Source of the DNA: Planctomycetota bacterium
GTDB taxonomy: Bacteria > Planctomycetota > Planctomycetia > Pirellulales > Pirellulaceae
DNA length: 64,000 nucleotides
Assembly: GCA_016872725.1 (NCBI GenBank)
Contig: VGZC01000004.1
Location: forward strand, 62,001-126,000
Direction of reading: 5' to 3'
A model generated the notes under the pieces. It was not told where the DNA came from and did not search any database. It worked only from the letters and a program-made list of their open reading frames with translations. The number at the start of each line of letters is the position of its first letter. The stretch's first letter is position 1. Shown piece by piece: positions 38,845-48,197 of this stretch. The position numbers and the translations under genes were made by a program.

Positions 38845-39420
38845 ATGGTTTCGATCAACCCGCGGACGATAACCACCGCGGAACAACTGTATTCGATTCC
38901 GGACGACGGCAACCGCCGTGAACTCGTCGAAGGAGTGTTGTCCATGATGTCGCCGGCCGGTTGCGAGCACGGTCGAATCGCGGGCCGGATCTTCTTGCGT
39001 TTGGCGACGCATGTCGAACAACACGCATTGGGGGAGACGTATGCGGCGGAGACCGGTTTCCGGATATCCGAATCACCGGACACGGTTCGAGCGCCCGACG
39101 CCGCCTTCGTCAGCCGAGGACGGCTTGAGGCGGCGGCGCCGACTGCGGGATTCCTTTCCCTGGCTCCGGATCTCGTCGTGGAGGTGGTATCGCCCAACGA
39201 TTCGTTTTCGAGTGTCGAGGCGAAGGCGGCCGATTGGCTTCGCGCGGGTTGTCAGGTGGTGTTGGTCGCCGATCCGGGCAATTCGACGATTCATGTCTAC
39301 GAATCGGGGTCCGGGATTCGGTTGTTGCGGTCGGGCGACCGGTTCTCGGCGGGTCCGGTGTGCGGCGGGTGGAGCCTGGATGTTGATGACGCGTTCGGTG
39401 TTTCGAGGCAAGTGACATGA
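38845..39420 (+). CDS. Uma2-family (DUF820) restriction endonuclease-like protein
   Basis: This 191-residue protein has the PD-(D/E)xK-like Uma2 fold. The motifs are RRELVEGVLSMMSPAGCEHG, RAPDAAFVS and DLVVEVVSPNDSFSSVEAKAADW, with an acidic D and ExK-like residues at the expected spacing. Many Uma2 proteins are of unknown function, and some act as nucleases. The ATG at 38845 follows a strong AAGGAG. Its stop overlaps the start of the KAS-like gene (ATGA), which is an unusual partner for an Uma2 gene. Confidence 0.82.
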   Translation: MVSINPRTITTAEQLYSIPDDGNRRELVEGVLSMMSPAGCEHGRIAGRIFLRLATHVEQHALGETYAAETGFRISESPDTVRAPDAAFVSRGRLEAAAPTAGFLSLAPDLVVEVVSPNDSFSSVEAKAADWLRAGCQVVLVADPGNSTIHVYESGSGIRLLRSGDRFSAGPVCGGWSLDVDDAFGVSRQVT

Positions 39421-40736
39421 TTTCGACACGTGGTCCGAACCGTCGCGTGGTCGTGACGGGGCTGGGCGTCATCAGCCCGCTCGGAAACCGCCCGGATGCG
39501 TTTTGGTCCTCGATCATGGAGGGAACGAGCGGCGTACGGCGCCTGCGGTCGCTCCCGACCGACGGCCTGCCGGTGGTCTTCGGAGGCGAATCGATCGACT
39601 TCACGGGGGACGCCGCCGATTTCGGCGTTACCGACAAGCAGGCGGCGCGGGCGATCAAGAAGTCGCTCAAGGTGATGTGCCGCGAGGTGATGATGGGCGT
39701 CGCGGCCGCGCAGCTCGCCTTGATCGACGCGGACCTGTCGGCCGAGCGTCGCGATCCCGACCGGACCGGCGTCGTCTACGCGTCGGACTACATCCAGACG
39801 AGTCCGTTCGATCTCGTGGACGCGATCCGCGCGTGTCTCGGCGCCGACGGCGTCCTTCAATTGAAACAGTGGTCGGCCAACGGCATCGGGAAAATCGATC
39901 CGCTCTGGTTGCTGAAATACTTGCCGAACATGCCGGCGAGCCATATCGCGATCCTGAACGACCTGCGTGGTCCGAGCAACTCGCTGACGGTTCGCGAGGC
40001 GGGCGCGAATCTGGCGGTCGCGGAGGCGTATTGGTCGATCGCGCGTGGGAATACGGACGCGATGATCGCCGGCGCCACCGGATCGCGCATCCATCCGCTT
40101 TGTTCGACGCGCGCCGCCCTGCGGGAACCGCTCGCTCGAGGCGACGATCCGGCCGTTCTTTGCCGGCCGTTCGACCGCGGGCGGAGCGGCATGGTGCTCG
40201 GCGAAGGCGCCGGAGCGTTGGTCCTCGAAGAGCGGGAGCGGGCGATCCGCCGCGGTGCCGTGATTTGGGGCGAGATCACCGGGTACGGCTCGTCCGCCGT
40301 GCTCGGACTCGATCACCCCGATCACGGCCGCCGCGCGATGCGCAACGCGCTCGCCGGCGCGCTCGCCTCGTCGGAACACGCGGCTTCCGACATCGGCCAT
40401 GTGCACGCGCACGGATTGGGAACGATCGAGAGCGACATCGCCGAAGCGCGCGCGATCGCCGATCTGTTCGGACCGAACACCGTGCCGGTCATCGCCTGCA
40501 AGAGCTATTTCGGAAACCTCGGCGCGGCCGGCGGCATGGTCGAACTGATCGCCAGCCTCCTCGCCATGCGGAACGGCCGATCGATCCCCGTACGGAACTA
40601 CCGCGATCCCGACCCAGAATGCCCGGTCGCGGTCGTGATCGATGCCGACACCGCGCCGGGCGATCGGTTCATCAACCTGAGCGTCTCGCCGCAGGGCCAG
40701 GCGAGCGCCATCCTGATCGACCGCGCGTCAGCTTGA
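39417..40736 (+). CDS. Beta-ketoacyl synthase-like protein lacking catalytic residues (KS-beta/CLF-like)
   Basis: This 439-residue thiolase-fold protein aligns with FabF along its whole length but has lost the active site. The TACAS region reads TVREAGAN (no Cys, near residues 191-197), and the second His motif GHSLGASG is replaced by GNLGAAGG (N366). The first His is kept in VHAHGLGT (H332), as is the Lys of KSYFG. This is the signature of chain-length factors (KS-beta), which pair with an active ketosynthase, or of decarboxylating paralogs. It is translated through a 4-bp overlap after the Uma2 gene. The active fabF upstream is a plausible partner; the product is unknown. Confidence 0.8.
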   Translation: MISTRGPNRRVVVTGLGVISPLGNRPDAFWSSIMEGTSGVRRLRSLPTDGLPVVFGGESIDFTGDAADFGVTDKQAARAIKKSLKVMCREVMMGVAAAQLALIDADLSAERRDPDRTGVVYASDYIQTSPFDLVDAIRACLGADGVLQLKQWSANGIGKIDPLWLLKYLPNMPASHIAILNDLRGPSNSLTVREAGANLAVAEAYWSIARGNTDAMIAGATGSRIHPLCSTRAALREPLARGDDPAVLCRPFDRGRSGMVLGEGAGALVLEERERAIRRGAVIWGEITGYGSSAVLGLDHPDHGRRAMRNALAGALASSEHAASDIGHVHAHGLGTIESDIAEARAIADLFGPNTVPVIACKSYFGNLGAAGGMVELIASLLAMRNGRSIPVRNYRDPDPECPVAVVIDADTAPGDRFINLSVSPQGQASAILIDRASA

Positions 40737-41199: not shown

Positions 41200-42702
41200 A
41201 TGAATCCAAACGAGATCCTTCGAATCGTGGACTCGCTCCACCGCGACAAGAACATCGATCCCGAAATCGTATTCCAGGCGATCGAGGCCGCCCTGGTGAC
41301 GGCGGCGAAACGGCGGTACGGCGAGGAAACCGAGGTCGCCGTTTCGATCGCCCGCGAAAACGGGCTGGTGAGCGCGACGCGGAACGGTGTCGAGCTGGCC
41401 ACCGATGAGATCGAGACGATCGGCCGCATCGGGGCCCAGTCGGCGAAGCAGGTCATCATCCAAAAGATCCGGGAGGCCGAACGGGACTCGCTGATCGAGG
41501 AATACGCGGCGCAGATCGGCCATATGGTCAATGGGATCGTCCAGCGCGCCGAACCGAACGCGATCACCGTCTCGGTCGGCACAATCGAGGCGTTTCTGCC
41601 TCGCAGCGAGCAGATCCCCGGCGAATCGCACCATCCGAACGAACGGGTCCGCGCCGTCATTTGCGACGTGCGCCCCCAGGGAAGCCGCGTCCGCGTCGTG
41701 CTCAGCCGCACACGCCCCCTGCTCGTCCAACGGCTCTTCGAACAGGAGATTCCGGAGATCGCCGACGGCGTCATCCAGGTGCGCGCCATCGCGCGGGAAC
41801 CGGGCTATCGAAGCAAGGTCGCCGTCAGCAGCGCCGATCAGCGCGTCGATTGCGTCGGCGCCTGCGTGGGAGTCCGAGGCAACCGGATCAAGAACATCGT
41901 GGATGAACTGGCCAGCGAACGGATCGATATCGTCCGCTGGAACGATGATCCCAAGACGCTGATCAGCAACGCCCTGCAGCCGGCCGAAGTCGATCAGGTG
42001 CTGCTCTGCGACATGATCGGCCGCGCCATCGTCCTCGTGCGCGAAGACCAATTGTCGCTCGCCATCGGACGAAAAGGCCAAAACGTCCGACTTGCGAGCA
42101 AGCTGTGCGGCTGGGACATCGAGATCATGACCGAGGATGAACTCGACGAACAAATCGAACGCGCCGTGAACGGATTCAGCCAGATCGACGGGATGAACGA
42201 GGAACTCGCCCAACGGCTCGTCGAGCAGGGTTACCTGTCGTACGACGACCTTTCGGTCATCGAACCGGACGATCTGATGGAAATGGGCGGGCTTACCGCC
42301 GAACAAGTCGACCACATCGTCACGCAGGCCGAATTGAAGGCCGCCGACGCCGAGAAGGCGGCCGAGGAAGAACGGCGGCGGCGGCGGGATGAGGACCGCC
42401 GCGCCAAGGCGGCCGAAGAAGCCAGTGACGCGGAAGCCAGTGACGCGGAAGCCAGTGACGCGGAAGCCAGTGACGCGGAAGCCAGTGACGCGGAAGCCAC
42501 GGAACCGTCCGAGGACGGAGCCAAGGACGGGGAGGTGGCGGACGTCGAGCGATCGAGGGGCACGCTCGAATACGAGAGCGAATCGACCGGTGGATCATCG
42601 GACGGGTCCGACGGCGCACCGATCGTGGCCGAGGCGTCGGATGAGCCGGGTTCGGATTCGGAGGGCGTCGTCGACGAACGAACGGCGGGTAGCGACCGAT
42701 AG
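41200..42702 (+). CDS. nusA: Transcription termination/antitermination protein NusA
   Basis: This 500-residue NusA has an N-terminal RNA polymerase-binding domain, an S1 domain (about 110-180, [17 protein letters not shown]) and two KH domains ([14 protein letters not shown] and [16 protein letters not shown]). The acidic C-terminal extension of about 140 residues contains a five-fold perfect ASDAE repeat. NusA modulates pausing, termination and antitermination. In most genomes rimP precedes nusA; here rimP is absent and a promoter plus terminator precede it. Because NusA stimulates intrinsic terminators, the leader terminator could act as autoregulation (inference). The start at 41200 matches the family N-terminus. 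Confidence 0.94.
42421..42495 (+). repeat. Five perfect 15-bp tandem repeats within nusA
   Basis: The unit gccagtgacgcggaa is repeated five times without change and encodes five ASDAE pentapeptides in the disordered acidic tail. Perfect identity, including third codon positions, points to recent slippage expansion. The frame is kept because 15 is a multiple of 3. Confidence 0.92.
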
Positions 42703-42832: not shown

Positions 42833-45757
42833 GTGCCCATGCGGATTTACGCGTTAGCGAAAGAACTGAAGGTCGACAGCAAGGCGCTGGTCGATATCTG
42901 CACGCGCGCGGGTATCACCGGAAAGGGGTCGGCGCTCGCCAGCCTCGAAGACGACGAGGTCGCTCGCGTGCGCGCGTTCCTGGCGAGCCCGAAACCGTCA
43001 TCCAAATCGGGGGCTCCGCTGCGCGAGGGCGGGCTGAGCCATCCGGGGTCCATCGCGCCATCGTCGAGCGTCCCTGTCGGCGCTCCGACCTTTTCGGTTC
43101 CGAGTCCGTCGACTCCATCGCCCGCGCCGGCGGCATCGGCGTCCGTTTCGGCGATACCCGTTTCATCGGCATCGGAATCGCCGCCGCTCGTTTCGCCGGC
43201 GTCGGGGTCGATCGTTCCGGGCTCCTCGGGGAGCGGTTCGACGGGTCTCGGGCGGTTCCTGCCGGCGCGTTCGGGTCCGGCGGCGACGACGGAGGCGCCA
43301 TCCGACCCCGCGGCGACTTCGGCGGGCGGCATCGCGCCGGTGCCGTCCGCGCCGACGCAACCGCCGCCCGACTCGGGAGCCTTTCGCCGCGATGATTACC
43401 TTCCGGCCACGACGGGCGGCAAGGTCAAGGTCCTTGGCGCGAAGGCCAAGTCGGCGAGACCTACCGAGGGCGGTGAGAAACCCCGCGTTCCGAAAGTGCG
43501 CGTGCCGGTGATCCATATCGCTCAAATGCCCGAGGTGCAGCAGCCGGTCGCGGCGCCCAAGTCGAACGAGCCCGCTCCGCAGAAACCCGACATTCGCCTT
43601 CCCCAGGATGCGATCGCCAGCGCCAAGCTCGGCGCGCGGCCACCTCTGGAACATCTCACGGCGAAGGCGGAGAAGAAGAAGAAAGAGAAGGAAAAGGAGC
43701 GGGAAAAGCCCCGCGAGAAGGGTGCTCCGCCCGCGAGTCCCCCGGCCGATCTTGCGTCGCGCGGCAGGATCCGAGGGAAGCGGGACAAGGTCGAGGGCGT
43801 CGATTCGGATCTGGCGGGAATGGCCAGCGCGCGGGCCGACCGTCAGAAGGCGAAGCGTCCGAAGAGCCCCGCCGCCGGAGGGTCCGATCGCGACGACGAT
43901 TCGTTCCGCTCGCATCGACGCCGCATGGTCAAACGCAAGGGACTGAGCACGGCCGCGCCGCGAAAAGGAGCGGTCGCCGTCCAGTTGCCGTGCACGGTCC
44001 GTTCGTTCTCCGAGGCGACCGGTGTGGGCTCGGGACGCGTCCTCGCCACGCTGCTCAAGATGGGCGTGATGCTGAACATCAACGCGCAGATCGAGCAGGA
44101 GACGGCTGAGCTGATCGCGGCCGAACTGGGACTCGAAGTCGAAATCAGACAGCCGGTCTCGATCGAGGAGACCGTGCTTGGCGACATCCACGGGCGCGAG
44201 GACTCGCCCGAATCGCTCGAACCGCGCCCGCCGATCGTCACGTTCCTTGGACACGTCGACCACGGCAAGACGTCCCTGCTCGACCGGCTTGTCGGCACGA
44301 ACGTCGTCGCCGGCGAGGCCGGTGGGATCACGCAGCATATCCGCGCCTACCAGATCACGGCGGCCGACGGACGCGTGATCTCGTTTGTCGATACGCCGGG
44401 CCATGAGGCGTTCACCGAAATGCGGGCTCGCGGCGCGAATGTCACCGACGTCGCCGTCATCGTCATCGCGGCCGACGACGGGATCATGCCACAGACCGAA
44501 GAGGCGATCAGCCACGCGCAGGCCGCGAAGGTGCCGATCGTCGTCGCGCTGAACAAAATGGACTTGCCCGGCGCGAACGCCAACCGCGTCCTGACTCAGA
44601 TGACCGAGCACGGCCTCACGCCCGGCGAATGGGGCGGCGACGTCGAAGTGGTGCGGACGAGCGCCGTCACGGGCGCGGGGATGGACGATCTGCTCGAGAC
44701 GTTGTTGACGATCGCCGAGATCCACGGATACCGGGCGAATCGGGGGCGGCCCGCCCAAGGCGTGTGCCTCGAAGCCGAACAGGGCGGCTCGCGCGGCGTG
44801 ATGGCGAAACTCATCGTTCAGAACGGGACGCTGCGCGTCGGGGACATCGTGGTCTGCGGCGAGTCGCATGGCCGAGTCAAGTTCATGTACGATACGCTGC
44901 GCGCGACGCGGCGCGTCGAGGAAGCCGGACCTTCGATGCCCGTGAACGTCGCGGGCTTCGACTCCCCGCCCGGCGCGGGCGAGACGTTTTACGTCCTTTC
45001 GGACATCACGCAAGCGCGCGAATTGGCCGATCAGCGAAGCCGCCGAGCCCGTGCGGCGAACCTGACCGGCACGTCGACCCGCGTTTCGTTCGAACGGTTC
45101 CAGGAAATGCTCCGCGACGGCCGGCTCGGCGCGAGCACCGAAACGGTGACGCTCAACCTCATCATCCGAGCCGACACGCGCGGATCGATCGAGGCGATCG
45201 TCAAGGAACTGGACAAGCTGGAGCATCCCGAGGTCCGCATCAAGGTGCTGCTCAAGGGCGTCGGCGGAATCACGGTCGGCGACGTGCATCTGGCCGAGGC
45301 ATCCGACGCGGTCATCGTCGGCTTCAACGTGACGACCGATGAAGGCGCCCGGCAACTCGCCGAGGAAAAAAGCGTGGAGGTGCGCCGCTACGAGATCATC
45401 TATAAGCTCACCGACGACCTCCGCGCGATGCTCGAAGGCAAGCTCAAGCCCGAGGAACGGGTCGTCGAACTTGGACGGGCCGTGGTCAAACAGGTGTTCC
45501 CGATCAGCCGTGTCGGCACGGTCGCCGGTTGTTACGTCGTTCAGGGGTTGATCGAACGCGCGTGCCGGGTCCGCGTGTTCCGCGAAGGCCGGCAGATCGG
45601 CGAGTATCCGCTCGATTCGCTCAAACGCGTCAAGGACGATGTGAAGGAAGTGCAGCGGGGCATGGAATGCGGTCTGAAACTGATGAACTTCAACGACATC
45701 AAGAAGGACGACATCCTCGAGGCGTTCAAGATCGAGGAATTCGCGCGCACCCTGTAG
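42833..45757 (+). CDS. infB: Translation initiation factor IF-2
   Basis: This 974-residue IF-2 has a short N-terminal IF2-N helix domain ([19 protein letters not shown]). A long low-complexity linker rich in Ser/Pro/Ala, then Lys/Glu, follows. The GTPase core has GHVDHGKT near residue 473, DTPGHEAF and NKMD near 573, and the C-terminal fMet-tRNA-binding domains complete it. It positions initiator tRNA on the 30S subunit. AAGGAGG precedes the GTG start at 42833; an ATG follows two codons later. It lies in the classical nusA-infB-rbfA order. Its stop codon is inside a 14-bp tandem repeat. Confidence 0.96.
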
Positions 45758-45785: not shown

Positions 45786-45832
45786 CGCGCGCTGTGGGCC
45801 CGCGCCGTTCGTTTCCGCCGCAAGAAGTCCCC

Positions 45833-46333
45833 ATGAGCTCGCGAAGAACGCTGAAAGCCGCCGAGGCCGTCCGGGAGGTGGTCAGCATGGCCATCCTCAC
45901 CGAACTGCGGGACCCGCGCGTCCGCGACGTGACGGTAACGCACGTCGAAGTGGCGCCCGACATGCGGTCGGCCAAGGTGCACGTCTCGATCATGGGCAAC
46001 GAATCGCGCCAAAACCTGTCGCTCGCCGGCCTGCGGAACGCGGCCGGATTCCTCCAACAGCGGATCGCCGCGCGCATCGACACGCGGTACACGCCCCGCC
46101 TGCAGTTTGTACTCGACCAGGGCGTCAAGAACTCGATCGCCGTCGCCCGCATCCTGCGGGAAGTTTTGAAGGCCGAGACTTCGTCCGAGCCATCCGAGAC
46201 CGACGCGGATTCTCCGCTCGCGGTCGACCCGGCGTGTCGATCCGATGAGGCGGGCGGCGCCGATTCCGACTCGCCCCCCATCGATCGCGCGGACGATCCT
46301 CCCGCCCCGTCCCAACCCTCCACCGCTTCGTGA
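45833..46333 (+). CDS. rbfA: Ribosome-binding factor A
   Basis: This 166-residue RbfA has the KH-like core ([45 protein letters not shown] and [15 protein letters not shown]) in the usual order. It also has an acidic, Ser/Pro-rich tail of about 50 residues not found in short homologs. It helps late 16S rRNA processing of the 30S subunit, especially in the cold. The ATG at 45833 is the start; the next gene begins within the stop (GTGA). Confidence 0.92.
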
Positions 46334-47391
46334 ACGATGAGACCGGCATGAGCACGAACCGCGCTGCCCTCTACACCAAGATCCATCGGATCCTCAAGAA
46401 GCACTATCGTCCCGCGACGCACGTGGAACGCTCGGTGCTCGAACACCTCCTGCACGGCCTGTGTCTGGAGAATTCGAAACCCGAAGCGGCCGACGAGGCG
46501 TTCGCGAGACTCCAGCTCTACGCCGATTGGAACGAGGTTCGCGTGACGAGCGTCGCCGAGCTCATGGAAGTGATGGGCATGCTGGCCGACCCGGGCGAAG
46601 CGGCTCGCCGTATGAAGCGGGTCCTCCAAAGCGTTTTCGAAACGCGGTACTCGTTCGATCTCGAGCACTTGCGGAAAGCCAATCTCGGCAAGGCGATCAA
46701 GGACGTCGAATCGTTCCAGGGAATCACGCCGTTCGCCGCCGCCTACGTCAGCCAGCACGCGCTGGGCGGCCATTCCATTCCGGTCAACGGCGGCGTGCTC
46801 CAGGTGCTCGTCGCGCTGAACGCCGTCACGCGGTCCGAGGCGGACGAGCGGCGCGCGCCGGGCATGGAGCGGGCCATTCCGAAATCCAAAGGGATCGAAT
46901 TCGCGTCGCTGCTCCACCAATTGGGCGTCGATTTCCTCGGCCCCAACAGCAGTCGGCTCAAGGCCATCCTCCAGGAAATACTCCCCACCGTGGAGTATCC
47001 CCGGCGGGAACGAAAGACCGCGCCGGAATCGGCGTCCGCCAAGGACGCGGGCGGCGCGAAGGGAGCGGCGGAAAGCCGATCGGATCGGAAGTCGAGCGGA
47101 CGCGACGCGGCCGCCCGATCGATGAAGGCCGCGAAACGGATCGAAGGAGAACCGGCCGATCGGACCAGGTCGCCCGCCGCGCACGGCACGCCCGAGAAAC
47201 CCGAGAAGACCGCCAAAGGGGAACGGACCGACAAGTCGGATAAGTCCGAAAAATCGGTCAAGACGCGGGCGGGCAAGGCGGACCGGCCGGCGAAGGACAA
47301 GTCGCGCGACAAGGAGCGCCCGTCGAAGGCCGGCTTGAGCGCGAAACCCACCTCGCCCGCGAAACCGATCACCAAGAAGAAACCGAAGTGA
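46330..47391 (+). CDS. EndoIII-like (HhH-GPD) protein with lost catalytic residues and Lys-rich tail
   Basis: This 353-residue protein has an N-terminal half that follows the endonuclease III/HhH-GPD fold, with the helix-hairpin-helix as [19 protein letters not shown]. The catalytic Lys of LPGVGRKTA is F135 here, and the catalytic Asp of VDTHV is N153 (IPVNGGV). The iron-sulfur cluster cysteines are absent. It is therefore unlikely to cleave DNA and may be a nucleic-acid-binding relative. The last 130 residues are low-complexity, rich in Lys, Ser, Ala, Asp and Glu. It sits in the nusA-infB-rbfA operon, overlapping the rbfA stop, which hints at an RNA or ribosome role (inference). The start is GTG 46330, or ATG 46348. 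Confidence 0.72.
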
Positions 47392-47444: not shown

Positions 47445-48197
47445 ATGGCTGGCCACTCCCACTGGGCCGGAATCAAGCACAAGAAGGCCCTCATCGACAA
47501 CAAGCGGGGAAAGCTCTGGAGCAAGCTCTCCAAAGCGATCATCGTCGCGGCGAAGATGGGAGGCGGCGACGTCGCCACGAACGCGCGCCTGCGGACCGCC
47601 ATCCTCGACGCCAAGGCGGTCAGCATGCCCAAGGACAACATCGAGCGGGCCGTCAAGAAGGGCACCGGAGAGCTCGACGGCGGCAACGTCGACGAGATCC
47701 TCTACGAAGGTTATGGTCCGGGCGGGGTCGCCATCCTGTGTGACATCATGACCGATAACCGCAATCGCACGGCCCCCGAAATCCGCAAGATCTTCGATGT
47801 CCACGACGGAAAACTCGGGAGCGCCAATTGCGTGGCCTGGATGTTCGAACGCAAGGGCCTGCTCTTCTTCCCGACCGAACCGATCGACGAGGATGCGCTC
47901 ATGGAAGCCGCCCTCGAGGCCGGCGCCGACGATGTGCGCCGCGACGGGGACAAGTTCCAGGTGACGTGCGATCCGGCCGCGTACAGTGAAGTCGTCGAGA
48001 AGCTCGAAGCCGCCGGGTTCGCCGCGTCGAGCAAGGAAATCGCGCGCGTTCCGACGAATACGGTCGATCTCGACGCGCCCACCGCGCGCCTCGTCCTGAA
48101 ACTCATGGAGGCGCTCGACGACCACGACGACGTCCAGTCGGTCTCCGCGAATCTCAACATCCCCGACGACATCATGGCCGAACTGGGCCAGGCATGA
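47445..48197 (+). CDS. yebC: YebC/PmpR family transcription-related protein
   Basis: This 250-residue protein starts MAGHSHWAGIKHKKALIDNK. It has the family motifs GGNVDEILYEGYGPGGVAIL and NRTAPEIRKIF, followed by the acidic C-terminal domain. Members of this family have been described as transcription regulators and, more recently, as factors acting on ribosomes stalled at proline-rich stretches. The location after infB and rbfA fits a translation role. The gene has 53 bp of spacer after the EndoIII-like gene. Confidence 0.93.
   Translation: MAGHSHWAGIKHKKALIDNKRGKLWSKLSKAIIVAAKMGGGDVATNARLRTAILDAKAVSMPKDNIERAVKKGTGELDGGNVDEILYEGYGPGGVAILCDIMTDNRNRTAPEIRKIFDVHDGKLGSANCVAWMFERKGLLFFPTEPIDEDALMEAALEAGADDVRRDGDKFQVTCDPAAYSEVVEKLEAAGFAASSKEIARVPTNTVDLDAPTARLVLKLMEALDDHDDVQSVSANLNIPDDIMAELGQA

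Follow-up and report, generated by a model that had tools for sequence, protein, structure and literature searches.

A gene found in most of the sampled families of the Planctomycetota, here called gene X, encodes a protein with the fold of endonuclease III (EndoIII) that shows a nearly invariant signature and has lost the catalytic set of its relatives. X is very probably a dead enzyme, a pseudo-glycosylase, judging from its residues. That it was also recruited to ribosome assembly or translation has a probability of about 0.5; its position in the genome, the charge of its tail and its lost repair features suggest, at the same even odds, work in small-subunit assembly or translation. The fold, the relationship, the loss of the catalytic set, the strong purifying selection and the gene order were all computed.

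The window, meaning the whole stretch of 64,000 nucleotides that was analysed, carries gene X at 46348..47391 on the + strand (347 aa). Open reading frames and Pfam matches give the gene order nusA-infB-rbfA-X-yebC, all on the + strand: nusA at 41200..42702, infB (initiation factor IF-2) at 42833..45757, rbfA (30S assembly factor) at 45794..46333 (PF02033, E 2.8e-26), and yebC at 47445..48197 (PF01709 and PF20772, with NF001030 over its cut-off). The open reading frame listed between rbfA and yebC, 46330-47391 on the + strand (353 codons), starts with GTG at 46330, and the original prediction placed the gene in this cluster with a GTGA overlap. The cluster holds, but the overlap probably does not: most orthologs share an M[SA]xxNR beginning, which makes ATG 46348, 14 bases past the rbfA stop codon, the most likely true start, and GTG 46330 with its overlap with rbfA is probably not the real one. 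Residues are counted here from ATG 46348, which makes the numbers of the original prediction 6 higher. Further upstream, NusA contains five tandem ASDAE units (42421-42495, residues 408-432), and another frame of this repeat reads KPVTR units. The gene upstream of nusA (39417-40736) encodes a beta-ketoacyl synthase; in other bacteria, the usual gene in this place is rimP.

The relationship of X emerges from profiles and models. With E values up to 1 allowed, the X protein of the window alone finds no match in Pfam and none to the NCBIfam nth model. Among NCBIfam models it comes closest to NF053634, the DR2438-type monofunctional DNA glycosylase (E 2.5e-5, 24 bits vs. a cut-off of 400), which 29 of 30 X orthologs match at E up to 0.1. 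Other glycosylases of the phylum fall short of this cut-off too, e.g., the one at locus L188 with 184 bits. Against PDB sequences, a profile built from close relatives (A2) retrieves DrEndoIII-1 at 6e-7, and a wider profile (A3) retrieves DrEndoIII-1 (3e-18), ROS1 (4e-14), DrEndoIII-3 (6e-12), and EndoIII (5e-9).

The AlphaFold2 model of X has pLDDT values of 95-98 in ten-residue blocks for residues 11-210, and 47-58 past residue 230. Together with the PDB matches, this delimits an EndoIII-like, all-helical folded core (residues 1-212, 46348..46983) and a mostly disordered tail (residues 213-347, 46984..47388). The best Foldseek rows for the model are DrEndoIII-1, ROS1, DrEndoIII-3, Mig, EndoIII, and MutY, with E values of 7e-7 and up and TM-scores by target length of about 0.4-0.65. 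In VIA, X aligns with DrEndoIII-3 (4uob) at Z 18.3 and rmsd 4.3 A over 218 residues; the remaining rows shown have Z 14.8-17.5 with many near ties, and the rmsd of the best rows is 4-5 A. The model of a distant relative with four cysteines (L192, pLDDT 93.7) gives the same fold picture (Z 19.5, 4.3 A, 226 aligned). Both the X model and the second model show the two-domain, all-helical EndoIII fold. In a quick tree of 88 rows, which excludes seven partial hits (L172, L174, L221, L223, L225, L229, L232), one branch separates 69 X sequences from 19 glycosylases (SH-aLRT 97); SH-aLRT was the only support computed, and 48 of the 85 inner branches are drawn open and 14 end branches are long. By these comparisons of sequences and models, X belongs with the EndoIII-type HhH-GPD glycosylases, near DrEndoIII-1 and ROS1.

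The family extends through most of the phylum. All 60 of the relatives' genomes searched contain a match to X, which is a fragment in G009 and is accompanied by a second, weak match in G007. In a scan of genome contigs, the best 80 of 486 confirmed loci bear planctomycete names, bar one titled only 'bacterium', and the closest named loci among those listed (80 of 486) are from Pirellulaceae and other Pirellulales. At E <= 0.001, the A2 profile matches 290 and the A3 profile 374 of 392 Planctomycetota genomes; since the A3 scores of glycosylases rival those of some X (118 bits at L188, 103 bits at L189), the figures 374/392 and 290/392 count matches and not X. Counting X by profile score alone was therefore dropped. 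Instead, 75 representatives were hand-picked from the list of A3 matches, mostly one per family, and the best hit in each was inspected. X is present in 63 of these, in 62 by locus reading and in one (G210) by score alone; among the 62 hits, at least four (L172, L221, L223, L225) span little beyond the N-terminal half. In the other 12 (G147, G402, G263, G411, G121, G158, G257, G071, G075, G140, G379, G430), inspection of the best hits found only other HhH-GPD-like proteins and not X, so the phylum is able to do without it. Most of the sampled Planctomycetota families thus have X. Literature searches, with subscription papers mostly outside their reach, found no description of it, and the passages searched of one paper (PMC3444138) hold nothing on it. 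As a conserved family for which no Pfam or NCBIfam model scores over its cut-off, X may be mistaken for a DNA glycosylase in profile searches.

The catalytic residues of EndoIII-type enzymes were compared across 135 distinct ortholog rows, namely 99 from close relatives (window included), 18 from the same class (families f21 and f22), and 18 more distant. The original prediction placed the catalytic lysine and aspartate columns at F135 and N153, and the ortholog alignment confirms both, here numbered F129 and N147 (46786..46788). Not one of the 135 orthologs has lysine in the first column; phenylalanine fills it in 98/99 close, 18/18 same-class, and 7/18 distant orthologs. The second column is different. 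The predicted loss of the aspartate is true of the X gene in the window and fails as a statement about the family, since Asp is kept in 67 of the 135 orthologs (42/99 close, 18/18 same-class, 7/18 distant), the other 68 having N, S, T, G, C, and one H. Among the 62 representatives, 2 have the Lys, 21 have the Asp, and none has both; the two columns are gapped in 4 and 5 rows, respectively. In 19 glycosylases of the same phylum, Asp is found in 19/19 and the lysine column holds K in 8, E in 10, and Y in 1; two more (L229, L232) were omitted for partial hits, and both have GxG and the Asp. In the X model, the Asp column lies just before the helix of residues 148-156, and capping of that helix would account for the residues seen; it leaves unexplained the A, F, E, P, and H that also occupy this column in the distant representatives.

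Two further features of EndoIII were considered. The helix-hairpin-helix of X (residues 119-134, 46702..46749) is eroded, contrary to the expectation that the DNA-binding hairpin had been kept: its GxG reads G-I-T, and among the representatives Gly125 is found in 24/62 and Gly127 in 5/62, while both are found in 19/19 of the glycosylases. The hairpin is thus not kept as a motif. The Fe-S cysteines, predicted to be missing, are indeed absent, since the X protein of the window has one Cys and so no four-Cys Fe-S motif. Four cysteines in Fe-S spacing are found near the end of the core in 30/62 representatives (28 under a narrower spacing), including one from the same class (L048, family f22), and in 21 sequences chosen for having them, all four are invariant in the alignment. 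Because so many representatives keep the four cysteines, the loss of the cluster is probably derived in the lineage of the window's gene.

On these counts, in the 135 orthologs and in the 62 representatives, an active EndoIII was rejected. Neither outcome named as refuting the original prediction came about cleanly: the Lys is missing from every one of the 135 orthologs, though 67 retain the Asp, and the genome encodes its Nth elsewhere (L001, over the NCBIfam cut-off). The same genome has MutY over its cut-off and an AlkA-like protein below its own. Since Nth and MutY have genes of their own, the genome does not depend on X for an EndoIII. A subtler possibility is that X is still a monofunctional DNA glycosylase, using the Asp alone, like Mig or DrEndoIII-1, or other residues, at least in those lineages that keep the Asp. 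The 18/18 same-class orthologs and the 67/135 overall would fit this, as would the pairing of Tyr and Asp at four loci (L160, L161, L206, L196), which is the pair seen in a glycosylase-methylase open reading frame at locus L163. The Asp is, however, replaced in the window and in 57/99 close orthologs (window counted), in a phylum whose own glycosylases all have it, and the hairpin is eroded. Persisting glycosylase activity is most improbable, and catalysis, to judge from these columns, is gone or dispensable in the X family.

The L163 open reading frame deserves a separate mention. On the - strand (L163:1741-3591; G195:C5), a single frame encodes a DR2438-like HhH-GPD domain and a DNA cytosine-5 methyltransferase (TIGR00675, E 1.5e-54). 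Its glycosylase domain scores 112 bits, below the NF053634 cut-off, with Tyr at the lysine column and the Asp kept. This looks like a methylase joined to an apparent repair enzyme for its own deaminated product.

What the family conserves lies elsewhere. The best conserved columns over the three ortholog groups are R65, N62, L93, D60, P145, and V66, and most of these fall in the signature D60-W-N-E-V-R-V66 (46525..46545), the family's best conserved site by column frequencies. With small changes, [FY]-V-D-W-N-E-x-R-V is found throughout the phylum. N62 and R65 have a frequency of 1.0 in all three groups (135 rows) and occur in 62/62 representatives; the latter count is partly circular, as the representatives were told apart partly by an N-x-x-R motif, while the 135 orthologs, found with A2, are free of this.

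Selection on the core is strong and purifying. Core dN/dS is 0.026-0.177 in the 13 close pairs with a finite value and at most 0.084 in 12 of them, although some pairs have a dS that exceeds 1 or is saturated, so that their ratios are rough (14 pairs were computed, one being saturated). Of the 12 pairs with values for both parts, 11 have a higher dN/dS in the tail than in the core. Low core dN/dS and the matches in 60/60 relatives rule out a pseudogene or a chance open reading frame. A protein in which the cutting chemistry is lost while another site stays nearly unchanged suggests a repair protein that has been given a new job.

The genomic context points to what this job might be. In 29 of 30 close loci, rbfA lies upstream of X on the same strand, the exception (L016) ending at X. 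The same holds for 105 of 107 further scored close loci, the other two (L091, L105) beginning at X; these 107 are partly from the same genomes as the 30, and three loci with no X row (L041, L132, L135) were omitted. Among the scored loci in which yebC was found, it follows the match by no more than 1.1 kb in 39 and by at least 2.2 kb in 23. X therefore stays with rbfA whether or not yebC adjoins. In the 62 representatives, read mostly for about 3 kb on each side, 20 have rbfA upstream, 21 have yebC downstream, and 9 have hisG downstream; one or other of rbfA and yebC is found in 32 and neither in 30. The rbfA region was also read in 11 genomes that lack X, and in four of them (L233, L235, L242, L243) hisG comes immediately after rbfA, which makes X an extra member of the cluster. 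One genome without X may have an rbfA-hisG fusion, since the RbfA and HisG profiles hit the same open frame there (L234:701-1954; G402:C29).

The synteny proposed by the original prediction thus extends far beyond this genome, and its central idea, a dead protein of EndoIII fold within a translation cluster, is well supported by residues, fold, and gene order. Gene order is the only direct tie of X to translation, and the 30/62 representatives in which the stretch read shows no rbfA and no yebC weigh against a ribosomal role.

The ends of the proteins are also of interest. The basic tail that had been predicted for X is present: it has 135 residues, with 39 K/R vs. 20 D/E. Its median charge is positive in all three ortholog groups, with a range of -27 to +59 among close relatives. 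The conserved tip in the window (...KPITKKKPK, 47347..47388) belongs to an ending of the form [KR][KR][KR]P[KRH] that is found in 82/95 close orthologs and in neither of the more distant groups (0/18 and 0/18). In the window, the core has a slight excess of basic residues (27 K/R, 24 D/E), while its median charge is negative in both of those groups. RbfA, encoded next door, ends in an acidic tail in 116/123 loci measured, with the other 7 at 0; in the window (45794-46333), this tail has 58 residues, is rich in Ser, Pro, and Asp, and contains 4 K/R and 14 D/E. The uneven tail charge and the negative core medians count against a ribosomal reading of X, as do the acidic end of E. coli RbfA and the lysine-rich tails that DNA-binding proteins too can have.

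This brings up the main rival, a role in DNA binding without catalysis. As a dead glycosylase, X might mark lesions or shield them, or it might belong to the nucleoid and have a tail like that of histone H1; its adjacency to rbfA would then be an ancestral accident or a matter of co-regulation. The fold is that of DNA-binding glycosylases, core and tail are basic here to the degree given above, 30/62 representatives keep four cysteines in Fe-S spacing, and DrEndoIII-3 is reported, in passages of a published study, to bind DNA with its activity undetected (PMC10523315). A recombination gene is also nearby in two cases, with ruvC directly behind X in L227 and an order X-yebC-ruvC, two genes on, in L147. 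However, the hairpin glycines are mostly gone, and the recurring neighbours of X are infB, rbfA, hisG, and yebC; the ruvC profile matches only three loci of the pool, L147, L227, and L238, the last being a locus without X. The idea of a recombination neighbourhood behind yebC was dropped for this reason. On balance, a DNA-binding role for X is rather unlikely.

Another explanation stays with the ribosome. RimM and RimP are 30S factors that appear to be missing from these genomes: the profiles RimP_N (PF02576) and RimM (PF01782, TIGR02273) match in 0/18 Planctomycetota genomes (G000, G052, G048, G083, G433, G344, G409, G425, G185, G116, G120, G070, G079, G092, G147, G402, G430, G411), and each of them matches in ten bacterial control genomes. 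As judged by these profiles, Planctomycetota may build 30S subunits without RimM and RimP. X, which is often beside rbfA, could have replaced one of them. Four of the 18 genomes (G147, G402, G430, G411) have no X and have no RimM or RimP match either, so X does not track the loss of these factors, and the proposal is weakened accordingly. Moreover, a highly diverged RimM or RimP might escape the profiles, and RsgA is found over its cut-off in 12/18 genomes. That X stands in for RimM or RimP is therefore quite improbable.

The preferred reading, in which a pseudo-glycosylase took on work in ribosome assembly or translation, can be put as a sequence of steps. An ancestor of X with the EndoIII fold would have lost base-excision chemistry within the Planctomycetota, and the disarmed protein would have been retained for another task. 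X would now be a factor peculiar to this phylum, with a part in assembling the small subunit or in translation, and it would be co-expressed with IF-2 and RbfA. The DWNExRV helix of the core may serve as the working surface, and the long, lysine-rich tail may hold rRNA, so that X would bind RNA or the ribosome. The acidic tail of RbfA is a possible partner of the X tail, although this is a guess. In its fullest form, the proposal describes a ribosome factor of the Planctomycetota that arose from a disarmed Fe-S DNA glycosylase, with a fold that binds rRNA or RbfA/YebC, a new and invariant DWNExRV site, and a lysine-rich tail, in a phylum where RimM and RimP go undetected; in this form it is tentative. 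If true, it would be a rare case of the fold of a base-excision enzyme turned into a non-catalytic translation factor and kept across most of a phylum, and it would bear on 30S assembly in Planctomycetota, where RimM and RimP go undetected. A transposon study of Planctopirus limnophila counted, in the parts of it consulted, 108 essential phylum-specific proteins of unknown function (PMC10632474); rbfA is not named in the portions of its main text that were searched.

X can be set beside several known systems. DrEndoIII-1 (DR2438) is its best relative by sequence, and the folds match over the core. X differs in its missing Lys, its eroded hairpin and, in the window, its missing Fe-S cysteines, as well as in having DWNExRV and the basic tail. 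ROS1, a plant 5-methylcytosine DNA glycosylase, shares with X in the profile alignment a D-W-x-x-x-R and a DLExL segment, and it is also similar in fold (VIA Z 17.2, 4.1 A, 215 aligned). It differs in having K, A, and A at the N62, E63, and V66 of X, and in keeping GxG and the Asp.

The highest fold score to X is that of DrEndoIII-3, which is not known to have a translation context. This protein is reported to bind DNA, to have no detected EndoIII activity, and to matter for oxidative-stress resistance, and, unlike X, it is described with an Fe-S cluster, an HhH motif, and catalytic residues, and is proposed to be specific to Deinococcaceae (PMC10523315).

RbfA and YebC resemble X in another way, through genomic company and a proposed shared process. 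The part of RbfA in 30S assembly is known (PMC8201178), and YebC has been counted among translation factors in published work (PMC12234827, PMC11990639). Both are from protein families other than that of X. SMUG1 differs from X in being an active eukaryotic enzyme of another superfamily. It resembles the reading proposed for X in that a DNA glycosylase is reported to have a role in rRNA quality control (PMC7826747).
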